From Arbacia lixula (taxonomy: Eukaryota > Echinodermata > Echinoidea > Arbacioida > Arbaciidae): a stretch of 64,000 nucleotides of DNA. How positions within the stretch are numbered: position 1 is the first letter of the stretch; each line of letters starts with the position of its first letter. Positions 3,695 through 50,191 of the stretch are shown one piece after another. The stretch is from positions 19,697,990 through 19,761,989 of the forward strand of contig OZ022576.1 of assembly GCA_963669155.1 (NCBI GenBank). Reading direction: 5' to 3'. A model generated the notes under the pieces. The model was not told the DNA's origin, made no database searches, and saw nothing but the letters and a program-made list of their open reading frames with translations. Position numbers and translations under genes: made by a program.

Positions 3695-36725
<33,031 letters not shown>

Positions 36726-43344: not shown

Positions 43345-43562
43345 CTACGTTTGGTGGTCATTTGGGGCCGTGTTGACGACGAGGGTGGCTACCTGAGATG
43401 TGACTGGCTGTGCCTGCATGACGGTGCCCGCATTCTTGATGTTTGCCATGGAGATGGTTGCGGTGTGCTGGGCGGCATTCCCGATGTTGACGTTAGCTAT
43501 TTGAATGGGCTGACCATCCCCCGTCATGACGGTCTGGTACACAGATGCTGGGATTACGATAC
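43345..43562 (-). CDS. NRF1: NRF1 coding exon 8 (last)
   Basis: It completes Gly392 and encodes 393-463, IVIPASVYQTVMTGDGQPIQ to NTAPNDHQT then TAG. This matches the vertebrate stretch VQIPVSMYQTV of the activation domain. Confidence 0.92.
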
Positions 43563-46500
43563 CTGCAGCCAGTAAGCATAGAACAGGAGGTTTATATAGT
43601 CTTTGTATTACAAAGCTATTTGTACTTAATGATCAATTTTCTTTCATTTCTTTCAATAATGTAATGGTTGGTTTACTTATCGTTACACTCTCAGGGCCCC
43701 ATTAGACTAGGGTGAATAGCCATAATGCTGATCTGCTTCATATGTCAAAATGAGCTACTTCTTCAAACCCTAACAAGATCCCAGATGGGCTTTGAAACAC
43801 TAGTATGACTATTGCCATTGTTTTGCATCTACTCTCTTGATACGCAAGTGAAGTGAAATTGAACCCTATTCTGACTTTTTCATGGAGCTAATGGAATATG
43901 TTTAGAGCCCTACTGCATATTTTATTAAAGGAAGAAAGTATTCAAATTTGTGCAAATTATAATTTATGCAAATGAGATACATATTTCACGAATTCATCTA
44001 TCTTTCATATAAAGATGATGGCATGAAGGTCAAACTTTTTTTTTTCAATATGCCGCGTAGCAAACTCAACAATATGTCAAAAAACCTTGAAATTACGAAT
44101 CAATTTTCTTCTGTATTTGTTTTATTTTTCCACATTGTTTTTTCTATTTTTGTTATTTTCTTTTGCTTCAGATATGTATTCAAAATAGGTTTAATCTACA
44201 AGCTATTTCCTTATCTGCATTGCTTTCATTGTTGTCTAGAATGTTTATAAGGAATTTGTTTTTAAATCAAAAAGTGTTGGATTAAGATACATGTATCAGA
44301 TAGGGCAAGACGTATCCTCATGATGTACTCAGAAGGATCCACTGGTTTGCTCATCATCACTTACAATCTCAATGACCAAACAAGTAGAGCTCCTGTTGAG
44401 AGCTCCACAAGCACTATTGCAATGCTAAGTTCTGCTGACATACATACCTTGAGTGGTGCCATCATTGACGGCCTGTAAAGACCCGTCACTGGACAGGACA
44501 AGTTGAGTGCCTTCTGCTAGTGCTGTCACCGTCTGCCCCTCAGTCAGTTCACTCTGCAGCAAGATAACAAGCACTCATCAGTTCTGGCTTCTTCTCAAGA
44601 GGAAAAACATATGCATGTTGTACTGGGTACGTTTCTCTACCAGTGATAATTAATAAATCGTCTCTACGACAGGGATCTTTTACATGGAGAAATTTACACA
44701 ACGCCTTTGGATTGTCCCTTTTTCCAAGATGATTCTGCTATGAAATATGAGCTCCTTTGCACCATGTCCCACAAATCAAATTTTCAATTACCACTTTTCA
44801 CACATACAGTGATACTCCCCAAAAGGTCTTGACATGGAATAAGTACAAGTAACGCTACATAAATAAAATACTACCAGGTGGTTAGATATTGTGGATATCT
44901 TTTGCCCAATTTAACTACACAAAGCATACCACACCTGTTCAGAAAAAAATAATTGATTGACAGCTGTATTGTATCAGATAGGGCAAGTGTTATCCTCATG
45001 ATGTACTCAGAAGTATTCCACTGGTATGCTCATCATCATATACAGGCTGTCAAGACTATTAATCAATTTTACAGAAAACTATGGCTAAAATTTCAGATTG
45101 TTTCAGTCATAATCATTAAATGTAGAATGTATTGTGAAGTAATCTATATAACTTCCTCTATAAAGAGCAAGTCATGTCAAATTGATTTTGTCAATTCTTC
45201 TTCTTCTTCAATTGTAGTACAGTCCACCATTGGTGTATATTCCTACTGTTGGCACATATGGTGTGGCTGCGAATATGCAAAGTGCCGGTTAAAACAAATC
45301 CTCGGCTATGTACAGTGCAGTTAAAAATAAGTGTCCCCATCTACTGGAGCTGAGCTTCCTGTACCACTTGCTTGTTTGTACTTGAGGACAAGCAGCACCT
45401 CCATAAGACCCTAGTGCTTGCTCCCCTCCACTCCTTACCTCTCCATGTGCTGCTGCAGCCACCTCAGCCAGGGTCTGGACAGCCTGGGTAGCCTCTGCCT
45501 GCTGGTTGCCTAGGGTCTGCTGGATCTGGAGTGGCTGTAACCTCACCTGCTGGATGGCTTGCAGGTTGGTCAGCTGCTGCACTTGCTGTACACAGAGAAC
45601 ACACAAATTTCATTTTAATGTAATCAATAAACATTCCATTTACTGTGTACAGGAAACAACACATTTGACATTTTTTTAATACTGTACATAAACAGAGCAT
45701 TGATTTCATTTATGTGAATATAATTGTGTTTCAATGTCATGAGACACATAACATACGACAGGCAGTGCTAAATTAGTTTAAGGCAAAAATTGTAAGAATG
45801 TAAACTTGGGGAGTAAAATTCTTTTTTGAGCACTCCTACTGGGGTGTGCTAGTTCCCAGGAATCAAGGTAAAATTCTATACAACTGCCAATAGACACCCC
45901 ATCCATTAAAAAACAACAAAATACTGGTTAGACTAGTATAATTTGTTTCACACAAAATAAATAAAAATACAGAGCAAGACAAAATATGTTTGTGTATCAG
46001 AGAGGGCAAGTGTTTTCCTCATGATGTACTCAGAAGGATCCACTAGATATCAAATCATCATATACACTCAAACAAGTTGAAAAACAGATCATCGAATCGA
46101 TGGCATAACCTTTGAATGCTCACTTTTTAATGATAATGCTGTTTTAGTGAAATGATATACTGTATAAGCTGTTATTTTCGCGTACATATATTTTCGCGAA
46201 TGGCGGCTTCTGCCACATATTCGCGTGTTGTTAAATTCGCGTTCACGTACACCGGGTCGTGCTCATGCTTAGTAGTCAGTACGTACTACTAGTAGTACAT
46301 GTGTGTGAGGCATGCGCTGTATGCTGCTGCATTTGTTCGCCATGCGTGTTAGTACTTAGTATAATCTCGTAATGTTGCAAGTTGATATGAGAATATTTTC
46401 GCGCGTTGTTAAATTCGCGTTTGCTCGTTCATTCGCGAAATTCGCGAAAATAAAACCCTCGCGAAAATAACAGCTTATACAGTATTCTGTAACAATGACG

Positions 46501-49500
46501 GCAACCTACCGTAACATCTGCTAATGTTGCCACTGTGGCACCAGTGTCCACCTGTATGAGGGATACCGTCCCGTCTGGGTTGTTGATGGTGTGGACCACT
46601 GCATGTGATGGCAGCAGTGTGGCAGTGGGAATGGCTGCATTCTGGGTCTGCGTTGCTTCACTCTCCTTGCATTTATCCTCTATAAACTCTGGCAAGAGAT
46701 CGTCCCGGCCATGGTGCTTGTAGCAGTTGATAACGATGGTACGTAGGGCATGGGTCCACGACACCTAGTAGTGTACATCAAAGGACATGAGAGCTTGTGT
46801 CAATTACATAATGAGGTGAGGCACTGGCTATGTTCTTTTCCACAAAATAGCACAACAGTACAGAATTATAGCAATGCTTTGTGTATCAGAGAGGGCAAGT
46901 GTTTTCCTCATGATGTACTCAGAAGGATCCACTAGATATCAAATCATCACATACACTCATATAAACAAATTGCTCAATACGCTAGTTCTGTTTCTCTTTT
47001 TTTCCTTTAATTTATTACTGGAAATGTATCACTGTAAAATACACACAATGGATGTATGCTCCAACTGCAAATAATACACCATCAATTTGACTGCATGCAA
47101 TACTTTCTTAAAACCGATTTGAAACGGTTTGTATCAATTCCATATTGGTAACAGATAGACAGACAAATATGAAAAATGAGAGAAACACAGAACTGTCATT
47201 TGGCAATAAATTAATTTACTTTATACGAGTAGCGCTAACTGCAGCAGACAGAAAGATTCCTACCTTTCTTTTCTCGTCCTCCGTCCTGACATCACTTCTG
47301 ACATTGGCCCAAGGCAGGTCTGAGGGCCACCAGACTGGCCTGCAGCTCTCCTTGCCCCAGCCAGGCTTGCCCCTGCCTGTGGAGTACTTCAGCATGAGGG
47401 GGATAAAGGCACGCAGCTGAGCCTGGGTCATCTTGTTGACCGGGGTTGGGATGCCGTCAATAACCAGGGGAGGGAGTTCGTATAGGTCGGATGTATCATG
47501 TGTCTGCTGAGGGGCTCTTTGGGCTAAGGCACTGTCTAGGTCTTGGAGAATCAGACCCTTCATGTTCCTCATCTGGAAAAAAAAAAGTTTATAGAGCAAA
47601 GTGAGTATAGACCATGAAGCAAAAATAGAAAGAGAGACAGGAAATGGGGTTGATATACATACATTGGTGGACTGATAGTCATTTAGCATTTAGATTCTAG
47701 TACACCAGATGAGCATGAGACATTAACCGTAATAGTGCATCTCTACTAGAAAATCTAAAATGTTTGTATTTAACAAACAAAGATGAAATTTAGTCAAAGG
47801 ACCATTTGAAGAAATGCAGATAATACTTGACATCATGTACTGATAAGTGCTTGCAATGTTAAGGGGAGCAGCATTTTCTCCAAATGAGTAGATTGCTCTG
47901 AATAAATGTGCTCTTTTGCACATTTCATCAGTATTTCATTTTCAGATGAAGTCTTCACTCTTCACATAAAGTGTTTACCCTGACACATCTGGCATAATTT
48001 GTAGGCTTATAAAAAGATCTCCATTTGGAATGAGTAATATCTATGTAAATTAAATAATTTGAGATAAGATTAAATTACGTCATACTGATGCATAAATCAG
48101 AGAAAGCATACCACATCTATAAGATAAAGAAATTTGACAGTTGTATCAGATAGGGCAAGTGTTATCCTCATGATGTACTCAGAAGTATTCCACTGGTATG
48201 CTCATCATCATATACAGGCTGTCAGGACATCAATGTTTAAGAATTGAGGGCACTGTGGTATAGTGGCAATAGCTTTGGATTCTTGCAGAGAAATGATGGG
48301 TTAGAACCCAGCCGAAGTGCAATGTGTTTTTGCTGTTTGTCCCTCTCGAGTCAACCCAGGTGTAGTAAATGGGTACCTGGCAGAAATATAGTATTCCTGA
48401 TCTAATTAGATCAACTAGCTTCTAGCGCTATTTTTTACTTGGCTGCTTGGCTAAAGCCAGGGTACTAATGAAGAGGGTTGAGCAGTACTACGTACATGTC
48501 CTAGGAATGCGCTATATAAAATTATATTACGTTACTTGTAATATTATCAATATCTACTTGCACAATGAACCAAGAAGAACTTACAATGTTTTCAAGAGGA
48601 GCAGCACCAAAGACTTTGAAGTTGCCATCATGCTTGCCTGGAGTACAAGTTACCACAACAGCCTGCTGTCCAACTCTCGTGGCATACTCATCAATGGTCG
48701 CTTTCAGCTTCCTGTCAGGATACAATCATTTCAAAGAATACGTCATTGTTCCAATGTGAATGTGAAATTAACTGTATAATTGTCTTCTATGATACAGCCA
48801 GTATGAGATTACATTACCTGACTTTAAAGGGCATGTACTGTACTGAGAAGGCAAAAAAGCCCTCAAAAGGTAATTGTTAGCAATCTCCTTGCCAATGGTC
48901 TTAAATTCATGTATTGACCATTTTTGAAGCTTGCTGAAAGTGATTTGCCCTCAAATGATCCACATATGGATTTATTAATTATTAATGAATCAATCTTCAA
49001 AATGTTTGGGCCGAACATTTTGAGGATTTGTGATTTAATCACTCATTACTCCAAATGTAGATCATTTGAGGGCAAATAATTTTCAGCAAGCTTCTAAAAT
49101 AGACAATACATGAATTTAAGACCATTGGCAAGAAGATTGCTAACATTTACATTTTGAAGGCTTTTTTGCCTTCCCAGTACAGTATATGCCCTTTAAATTC
49201 AGTATCTTTTTGATCTGTGCACACAAACCATTCCTGAACATATTACATAATTTCCAGGTAATGTGGAATCATTTCATCTAAAAACCAGTTTAGCTTACCT
49301 TGAAATAGCTTCCTCTCAAAAAAAATTATCAATTTACCTGATAAGCCTTGTTTGCTGGCGGCGGCGTATGGAGGGGTTAGTCTCGAATGAATGAGGCCTT
49401 TTACGTTTCTTCCCTGTCGCAATAGCTGCAGCAGCAGCTACACCAATTGGACCTAATATAAAAGGAGATAAATTAATGCAAACTTTCAGAGAAGATATAT

Positions 49501-50191
49501 TCTAGTTGGAGGTTCTTTGACCCTATCCTTACTAGGTGGTTATTTTGATCCCCCCCCCCCCCCCCCCTCCTCGCTCATTGAGACCACGTTTAAAAAAATG
49601 AGAAAACAGTGTATGCCATTTCACAATTTCTCCTGTAAGACTGTTCCGCAGACTCACAAAATAAAAATAGCAATTTACAATTTCAATGGTACATGACATG
49701 TATGTTACTATAGCGAATTTTGATCATTCCTGGTTCCCAACAAATTATAAGAAAATTTAGAAATCCCTGAATTTCCCATGATGAGATCATGAGAGTGCAT
49801 TACAAGTAAGAAAATGGTAAAACTTTTGGTAGCAGCATGCAGTTGCTTTCTTGTGTAATTGATCAATTCATGAGGTGAAGAATGAAAAGTGACAATAGAG
49901 AAATGAAGAGATAGATTGTACTGATATCTTATTAAAAATTTCATATCAGTTTCTTCATCTGATGAAGATGTACCCCAGGAATGCTTGCAATTTGCAAATA
50001 TGAAACATTTTTTATTGCAGTCATAACTATTAAGTTCTGTACCTCCCTTCCCAATATAAATCAAATTCTGACTTACCTGATGCTGCTAACTGAGCAGACA
50101 CATCATCGGTCATGCTCGAGTCAAGCAAGTCAGAGTCATCAAATGGCGTGTCCGGAGAGGACGGCTCGCTGATATCCTCACTTATCATCAT
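43345..50191 (-). CDS. NRF1: NRF1: nuclear respiratory factor 1 (P3A2 family), 8 coding exons
   Basis: On the minus strand the coding exons are 50191-50077, 49452-49338, 48711-48585, 47572-47264, 46764-46510, 45585-45439, 44553-44448 and 43562-43345. All have GT/AG junctions and matching phases, giving 463 residues against 503 in human NRF1. An acidic N-terminus (MMISEDISEPSSPDTPFDDS) precedes the nuclear localisation signal KKRKRPH (53-59). Residues about 66-260 are the NRF1 DNA-binding region, with RVGQQA, VFGAAPLEN, KMTQAQLRAFIP and KPGWGKESCRPVWWPSDLPW. The Gln-rich C-terminal half is the activation region. NRF1 binds GCGCATGCGC-type promoter sites as a dimer and controls mitochondrial and growth genes; P3A2 is its sea urchin counterpart. 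The ATG at 50191 has A at -3, and no upstream coding exon was found. Introns 4-8 each contain a box C/D snoRNA. Confidence 0.95.
43563..44291 (-). other. NRF1 intron 8, 3' part, nothing seen
   Basis: AT-rich intron sequence downstream (in the NRF1 sense) of snoRNA copy A. Confidence 0.45.
44292..44365 (-). ncRNA. Box C/D snoRNA, copy A, NRF1 intron 8 (SNORD62/SNORD103-like)
   Basis: On the minus strand a 74-nt unit begins TGTA, then box C GTGATGA, an internal box D' CTGA, a C'-like ATGAGGA, and ends with box D CTGA followed by TACA, which pairs with the starting TGTA. The D' guide CCAGTGGATCCTT can pair with 18S rRNA GAGGATCCATTGG using two G-U pairs. The D guide TCTTGCCCTAT pairs with AGGGCAAG and then mismatches. 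It lies 82 nt inside the donor of intron 8. It is the most diverged of the five copies in the D guide. Confidence 0.75.
44448..44553 (-). CDS. NRF1: NRF1 coding exon 7
   Basis: Residues 357-391 plus one base, SELTEGQTVTALAEGTQLVL to NDGTTQ. Donor G|GTATGT. Confidence 0.92.
44554..44969 (-). other. NRF1 intron 7, 3' part
   Basis: No feature seen between snoRNA copy B and the exon 7 acceptor. Confidence 0.45.
44970..45044 (-). ncRNA. Box C/D snoRNA, copy B, NRF1 intron 7
   Basis: A 75-nt unit with terminal TGTA/TACA pairing extended by GACAG/CTGTC outside, box C ATGATGA, D' CTGA and D CTGA. The D guide ACACTTGCCCTAT pairs with 18S AGGGCAAGT. The D' guide reads CCAGTGGAATACTT, differing from copies A, C and D and no longer matching GGATCC. 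It is nearly identical to copy E. Confidence 0.8.
45045..45438 (-). other. NRF1 intron 7, 5' part
   Basis: Intron sequence between the exon 6 donor and snoRNA copy B. It has a short TTC repeat near 45196-45210 and otherwise nothing that I can identify. Confidence 0.45.
45439..45585 (-). CDS. NRF1: NRF1 coding exon 6
   Basis: Residues 308-356, a Gln-rich segment QVQQLTNLQAIQQVRLQPLQ to VAAAAHGE. It aligns with the Gln/Ala-rich activation region (EATQAVxxLAEVA). Confidence 0.92.
45586..45992 (-). other. NRF1 intron 6, 3' part, nothing seen
   Basis: AT-rich intron sequence between snoRNA copy C and the exon 6 acceptor. Human NRF1 has extra residues at this exon junction, but I found no further exon here. 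Confidence 0.4.
45993..46066 (-). ncRNA. Box C/D snoRNA, copy C, NRF1 intron 6
   Basis: A 74-nt unit with terminal GTGTA/TACAC pairing and outer GTTTG/CAAAC, box C ATGATGA, D' CTGA and D CTGA. The D' guide CTAGTGGATCCTT pairs with 18S GAGGATCCATTGG over 13 positions, allowing G-U. The D guide ACTTGCCCTC pairs with 18S GAGGGCAAGT over 10 positions. The fifth bases upstream of D' and D point to the A of GGATCC and the second G of AGGGC, which are 11 nt apart like human Am590 and Gm601. Confidence 0.85.
46158..46484. mobile_element. Inverted-repeat MITE with TTTCGCG arms, NRF1 intron 6
   Basis: Perfect 25-bp inverted ends, starting TACTGTATAAGCTGTTATTT and continuing TCGCG, enclose 327 bp rich in TTCGCG words. 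The flanking TA suggests a TA target site. The interior is CpG-rich and non-coding. Confidence 0.8.
46510..46764 (-). CDS. NRF1: NRF1 coding exon 5
   Basis: Residues 223-307, VSWTHALRTIVINCYKHHGR to VATLADVT, including NPDGTVSLIQVDTGATVATL, nearly identical to vertebrate NRF1. Confidence 0.96.
46882..46955 (-). ncRNA. Box C/D snoRNA, copy D, NRF1 intron 5
   Basis: A 74-nt unit nearly identical to copy C. It has GTGTA/TACAC terminal pairing, a perfect box C GTGATGA, D' and D CTGA, and both 18S guides intact. It lies 117 nt upstream of the exon 5 acceptor. Confidence 0.85.
46956..47263 (-). other. NRF1 intron 5, 5' part
   Basis: No further feature seen between the donor of exon 4 and snoRNA copy D. 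Confidence 0.45.
47264..47572 (-). CDS. NRF1: NRF1 coding exon 4 (DNA-binding core)
   Basis: Residues 120-222, MRNMKGLILQDLDSALAQRA to VRTEDEKRK. It contains KMTQAQLRAFIPLMLKYSTG and RGKPGWGKESCRPVWWP, the best conserved part of the NRF1/EWG family. Confidence 0.97.
47573..48141 (-). other. NRF1 intron 4, 3' part, nothing seen
   Basis: AT-rich intron sequence between snoRNA copy E and the exon 4 acceptor, which has a long T run on the sense strand. Confidence 0.45.
48142..48216 (-). ncRNA. Box C/D snoRNA, copy E, NRF1 intron 4
   Basis: A 75-nt unit almost identical to copy B, including the altered D' guide CCAGTGGAATACTT. The terminal stem TGTA/TACA continues outward as GACAG/CTGTC. Box C is ATGATGA and both D boxes are CTGA. 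The D guide is ACACTTGCCCTAT. Confidence 0.82.
48246..48535 (+). mobile_element. tRNA-derived SINE, plus orientation, NRF1 intron 4
   Basis: The head carries an A box TGGTATAGTGG (48256-48266) and a B box GGTTAGAACCC (48299-48309), spaced as in pol III genes. The body follows with GGGTACCTGGCAGAAATATA, AACTAGCTTCTAGCGC and an AT-rich tail. It runs opposite to NRF1 and ends about 50 bp from the exon 3 donor. The second copy at 30896-31126 confirms the family. Confidence 0.8.
48585..48711 (-). CDS. NRF1: NRF1 coding exon 3
   Basis: It completes Arg77 and encodes 78-119, KLKATIDEYATRVGQQAVVV to VFGAAPLENI. Donor ATT|GTAAGT, phase 0. Confidence 0.96.
48824..49196. mobile_element. TTAA-flanked MITE, family A, intact copy, NRF1 intron 3
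   Basis: Left TTAAAGGGCATGTACTGTAC and inverted right TTAAAGGGCATATACTGTAC begin arms of about 180 bp that pair nearly perfectly around a short loop near 48985-49020. TTAA stands at both ends. The split copy at 786-2345 is a relative. Confidence 0.85.
49338..49452 (-). CDS. NRF1: NRF1 coding exon 2
   Basis: It completes Gly39 and encodes 40-76 plus two bases, PIGVAAAAAIATGKKRKRPH to RRRQQTRLI. It carries the nuclear localisation signal and the start of the DNA-binding region. Confidence 0.96.
49453..50076 (-). other. NRF1 intron 2; 18-nt C run
   Basis: The only structure seen is the poly-C run at 49550-49567 (poly-G in the NRF1 transcript). Confidence 0.6.
50077..50191 (-). CDS. NRF1: NRF1 coding exon 1
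   Basis: Residues 1-38 plus one base, MMISEDISEPSSPDTPFDDS to VSAQLAAS. Acidic residues and SSP/TP sites align with the vertebrate phosphorylated N-terminus. Two adjacent ATGs (50191 and 50188) exist; the first has AGG before it. An acceptor TTGTAG lies 28 nt upstream, so the exon begins at about 50219 and a 5' non-coding exon must exist. Confidence 0.88.

Follow-up and report, generated by a model that had tools for sequence, protein, structure and literature searches.

Coding introns 3–7 of the NRF1/P3A2 gene of the sea urchin Arbacia lixula each contain one unit of about 75 nucleotides (nt), all five in the sense orientation of the gene, and the question raised by this locus is what these units are and what, if anything, they would do. 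The gene lies in a stretch of 64,000 nt (assembly GCA_963669155.1, contig OZ022576.1, positions 19,697,990 to 19,761,989), referred to here as the window and numbered from its first letter. We consider it highly probable, judging from the sequence, that the units form a family of box C/D small nucleolar RNAs (snoRNAs), encoded within introns and present in five copies, with guides for the bases of 18S ribosomal RNA (rRNA) equivalent to human A590 and G601. This reading follows from the C/D anatomy of the units, their sense placement in five introns, a similarity that is limited to the unit, and antisense guides beside the D′ and D boxes.

The units, all on the minus strand and with ends derived from box positions and stem lengths, are copy A (44292–44365, in intron 7, 43563–44447), copy B (44970–45044, in intron 6, 44554–45438), copy C (45992–46067, in intron 5, 45586–46509), copy D (46881–46956, in intron 4, 46765–47263), and copy E (48142–48216, in intron 3, 47573–48584). 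Each has a box C (RTGATGA) near its 5′ end and a box D (CTGA) near its 3′ end; a D′ box (CTGA) is likewise present in all five, and alignment of the copies reveals a C′ box in each, ATGAGGA, one base off RTGATGA. A terminal stem of 4–5 base pairs (bp) brings boxes C and D together in every copy; in copy A, box C is GTGATGA, D′ and D are both CTGA, and the stem is TGTA/TACA. The boxes C, D′ and D and the terminal stem that an earlier reading of the window, made from sequence only, had assigned to the units are thus borne out in 5/5 copies. Outside the unit, the 24-nt flanks of copies B, E and A pair better than shuffled flanks (0/2000 shuffles for copy B, fractions of 0.0075 for E and 0.023 for A), and copy B has a long external stem. 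When flank pairing was compared with that elsewhere in the intron concerned, the corresponding values were 0.010 for copy B, 0.044 for A, 0.060 for D, 0.10 for E and 0.27 for C.

Chance occurrence of the boxes is ruled out by a scan of the window for box C, box D and a terminal stem of at least 4 bp. All five units were recovered, each with a normally spaced D′ box (copy B also in one longer alternative form), against 0.2 such D′-bearing hits per window and 1.15 hits in all in a null of 20 Markov sequences; two further places in the window were found, both lacking a D′ box. The 19-nt core CTCATGATGTACTCAGAAG has five perfect matches in the window, as against a mean of 0.02 in shuffled sequences, up to three mismatches being allowed in both counts.

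The host gene (43345–50191, minus strand) was modeled by eye as eight coding exons: 50077–50191, 49338–49452, 48585–48711, 47264–47572, 46510–46764, 45439–45585, 44448–44553 and 43345–43562, in order from exon 1 to exon 8. Joined at GT-AG splice sites, these give an open protein of 463 residues that contains the Nrf1_DNA-bind domain (E 1.8e-111), and is 88–89% identical to P3A2 of Lytechinus pictus (88%), Diadema antillarum and Strongylocentrotus purpuratus. Two NRF1 chains of known structure, 8k4l and 8k3d, also match it, and the sequence thus supports NRF1 as the host. Together with an all-versus-all BLAST of the seven introns, the splice model also confirms one unit per intron in five successive introns, always in the sense of NRF1; coding introns 1 and 2 gave no BLAST match to the unit. 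The introns had been numbered 4–8, and here their succession stands but the numbering does not, as the coding model gives 3–7; numbers 4–8 need one intron added in the 5′ untranslated region, and no search for such an intron was made.

Two other elements lie in introns of this gene. In coding intron 2, a foldback at 48818–49202 has two 192-nt arms that are 86% complementary with 1 nt between them, and is probably a foldback element or one resembling a miniature inverted-repeat transposable element. In intron 5, between copy C and the exon at 46510–46764, the region 46159–46483 contains repeated TTCGCG words as a direct repeat, and its ends, ACTGTATAAGCTGTTATTTTCGCG and CGCGAAAATAACAGCTTATACAGT, are by eye inverted copies of each other, resembling a small DNA transposon.

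The BLAST between introns showed that similarity is confined to the unit, 75–82 nt with sharp ends, and not to the 85 bp initially given; the exception is the pair of copies B and E, which share a longer stretch (an alignment of 136 columns that includes the outer stem). Copies C and D are 98.8% identical over 82 nt. Sharp ends of similarity could also be produced by a mobile repeat with snoRNA-like boxes that had been inserted in introns without function, and one truncated copy, of the 3′ half, does exist elsewhere in the genome. When the 607-Mb assembly was searched at the DNA level, with a tool whose counts are minimum values where a repeat family is large, just six matches nevertheless came up, namely the five NRF1 copies, all sense and each in its own intron, and this one fragment, in place of the many randomly oriented copies outside introns that would have spoken for a repeat. 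As both guides also have known modification sites as their best targets (see below), we reject the mobile repeat as a very improbable account. The fragment (G000:C9:2331748–2331793, equivalent to L006 1501–1546), on another contig, starts shortly ahead of D′, extends through box D and is preceded by a CGTTATAACGGGGTTTCCCTGTA stretch that is repeat-like in look. It was also rejected as a sixth gene: a covariance model of the unit, which was run on the window, this relative and the stand-in 18S rRNA described below, matches it at model positions 34–75 only, and the preceding sequence is by eye unrelated.

To identify targets, each guide was scanned against a full-length 18S rRNA under the box+5 rule, by which the duplex has to include the fifth base counted from the box. 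An initial guide check had used an 18S reference stretch; the full-length sequence was a stand-in of eukaryotic origin, NZ_CP050525.1 (L007), and not the 18S of Arbacia lixula itself. This record is filed as an Acinetobacter baumannii plasmid, yet contains eukaryotic 18S rRNA, plant-like by inspection, and its end is what we take to be the start of an Illumina adapter; it is a misfiled contaminant.

In copies A, C and D, the D′ guide has its best 18S match at the A of GAGGATCC (GAGGA), equivalent to human A590, with 13, 14 and 14 contiguous pairs, respectively, of which 2–3 are G-U against the reference stretch. Shuffled guides attained these scores in 28/5000 cases for copy A and 57/5000 for copy C. 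The D guide has as its best match, in all five copies, the G of GGAGGGC, equivalent to human G601, with 11 contiguous pairs in copies C and D (shuffles attained the score of copy C in 108/5000 cases), 9 in B and E, and 8 in A. The guides of copy D are identical to those of copy C, and those of E to those of B. In copies B and E the same 1-nt insertion breaks the register of the D′ guide for A590, and the best that this guide achieves, on 18S only, is 7 Watson-Crick pairs, matched by 2926/5000 shuffles. Duplex energies rank the copies in the same way for both guides, being −25.0 for A, −22.0 for C and D, and −16.1 for B and E with the D′ guide, and −19.6 for C and D, −16.0 for B and E, and −15.7 for A with the D guide. 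The two targeted bases lie 11 nt apart on the stand-in 18S, the spacing of human Am590 and Gm601. The D′ pairing proposed for copies A, C and D and the proposed pairing of the D guides with a nearby site hold against the reference stretch and against one full-length eukaryotic 18S, with just 8 pairs for the D guide of copy A. The further suggestion, that a single RNA would take over the tasks of two human snoRNAs, fits two of the five copies well, namely C and D, where alone both guides are strong (14 and 11 pairs). The sequences thus suggest two bifunctional copies (C and D), one A590 guide (A) and two G601 guides (B and E).

The broken A590 guide of copies B and E and the weak G601 guide of copy A could instead mean that just one or two genes of the family (C and D) are active and the remaining copies are decaying, so that not all five would be functional. 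This we consider unlikely, since 5/5 copies retain their boxes and terminal stem as well as the entire D′–C′ segment, and flank pairing is strongest in copy B.

A number of results weigh against the five-copy snoRNA family. Nowhere in the window does a match attain the gathering score of its Rfam family, and neither SNORD62 (RF00153) nor SNORD103 gave a row at gathering or at E ≤ 10, one unnamed same-clan overlap having been dropped in the latter, permissive search; the suggested comparison with these two models thus came out negative at the units, and membership of either family by model is rejected. The flank pairing of copies D and C, which contain the best guides, is not clearly above that of shuffles (fractions of 0.093 and 0.13). 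The units lie 117–729 nt from the 3′ splice site; vertebrate intronic C/D snoRNAs are located roughly 70–80 nt from it. The 8-pair D guide of copy A is no better than chance (1325/5000 shuffles) and the 9-pair D guide of B and E is weakly above it (355/5000). Finally, a search for the 18S of the Arbacia lixula assembly returned 0 matches both with a 77-base query, where common words were skipped, and with an exact 23-mer, so that either the rDNA is absent or was skipped, or the stretch differs. In some invertebrates T stands in place of C in GATCC; with that change, one G-C pair of the D′ guide would become G-U and the duplex would stay unbroken.

As regards Rfam, a permissive scan of 44200–48300 gave 24 rows, 21 of which are whole-model alignments of 10 C/D families to the units on the same strand, all below the family cut-offs (best, snoR77Y, E 0.039); the other three (MIR7696, snoZ40 and DdR1) fall outside the units. 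Sub-cut-off matches to many C/D families are what is expected when a C/D RNA belongs to a family that is not listed.

The weak D guides also bear on a simpler proposal, that the units are real C/D snoRNAs but essentially the sea-urchin U62/SNORD62, directed at A590 only, the G601 pairing next to box D being incidental or marginal. Chicken U62 (GGgCD14) targets the same A and, like copies A, C and D, does so from D′ (PMC2653536), and the D guide has 8–9 pairs in 3/5 copies, often matched by shuffles. The A590 guide at D′, a trait of SNORD62, is however absent from B and E, and these copies keep the G601 guide though their A590 guide is broken. The U103 site, at a distance of 11 nt, is the best target of every D guide, with 11 pairs in C and D, and the Rfam scans contain no SNORD62 row. 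The units differ from SNORD62 in having no match to its Rfam model even at E ≤ 10, a second 18S guide beside box D, and NRF1 as host. We regard this A590-only proposal as distinctly improbable.

Under the favored reading of a five-copy guide family, the units would be released from spliced NRF1 introns and protected by snoRNP proteins bound to the C/D core and terminal stem, and would direct fibrillarin to 2′-O-methylate 18S rRNA. The A590 equivalent would be methylated via the D′ guide of copies A, C and D, and the G601 equivalent via the D guide, most effectively by C and D and more weakly by B, E and A. The family probably arose by copying of a unit between introns of one gene, after which the copies would have drifted into three forms: dual guides (C and D), a guide chiefly for A590 (A) and guides chiefly for G601 (B and E). 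In C and D the D′ and D duplexes share three 18S bases (GGA), and simultaneous full pairing of both is unlikely. A tentative extension, possible but not the likelier case, is that C and D each serve both sites, their two duplexes competing for GGA within the helix-18 region, so that one snoRNP methylates A590 and G601 in turn or clamps this stretch in the manner of an RNA chaperone, and that the five NRF1 copies have split the two jobs.

Whether other RNAs might guide the same bases was addressed with strict patterns, which would overlook guides that pair through G-U or whose boxes vary. The A590 guide pattern next to D′ has five matches in 607 Mb, three of them copies A, C and D, and the reversed-pattern control has none; in the two extra places (L012 and L013) the pairing does not extend, the next guide base upstream of GGATCCT being unpaired. 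Next to box D the A590 pattern gave two places (control, 0), L014 and L015, which were set aside as doubtful; the two are similar to one another and have the look of an exon end in antisense reading. Further A590 guides may still be among these four places. The G601 pattern next to D′ gave 0 matches genome-wide, in a search without a positive control. Separate U62- or U103-like RNAs may exist elsewhere in the genome.

Elsewhere in the window, an open frame at 10098–11219 (plus strand) contains 10.4 copies of a 60-nt unit (10362–10984) and encodes 20-residue repeats rich in lysine and glutamate. Tandem arrays are found at 24232–24695 (22 nt × 21) and 31105–31640 (68 nt × 7.9).

The two sites are established elsewhere. 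Human 18S Am590 and Gm601 are named as modified, and G602, C603 and A605 are named beside Gm601 in helix 18, consistent with human numbering (PMC10164566); in chicken the corresponding A551 (U62) and G562 (U103) are 11 nt apart (PMC2653536). The Am590 site is served by snR41 in yeast, snoR41Y in plants and U62a in humans, the sites being equivalent (PMC3511168). The NRF1 units resemble U103/SNORD103 (HBII-251, chicken GGgCD15) in targeting G601 and in having several copies in one host gene, the chicken copies being three, in introns 9, 12 and 21 of PUM1 (PMC2653536). The G601 guide of GGgCD15 is at D′, whereas that of the NRF1 units is beside box D and shares its RNA with an A590 guide. U24 (chicken GGgCD38) likewise uses one RNA with two guides for near bases of one rRNA, 28S C2112 and C2126, 14 nt apart (PMC2653536), but differs in its 28S target, its sequence and its single isoform. 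Chicken GGgCD18 is predicted to unite on one RNA two modifications that are separate in human, a case termed 'recombination of guiding function' (PMC2653536); its sites are one in 18S and one in 28S, whereas both sites of the NRF1 units are in 18S, 11 nt apart. Intragenic copying of chicken snoRNAs into adjacent introns is known (PMC2653536), and snoRNAs are mobile among broadly expressed host genes, broad expression being the main requirement of a host (PMC3511168). A regulatory connection from NRF1 to ribosome maturation, proposed in the earlier reading, is a conjecture. Each ingredient, dual guides for close sites, regrouped functions and copies within one gene, is thus known from chicken.

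In the open-access literature, mostly judged by title and the start of the abstract, we found no description of a snoRNA family in NRF1 introns, nor did we find a paper joining snoRNA and P3A2. The finding adds a sea-urchin snoRNA family, its host gene and a guide combination that we have not found described. The effect on general understanding is modest; two guide functions that reside on separate RNAs in chicken and human are predicted to be joined on one RNA, and five copies with differing intact guides would allow one to ask how dual guides arise and split. If the dual-guide reading is true, this one gene would contain a natural fission and fusion experiment for the functions of U62 and U103.

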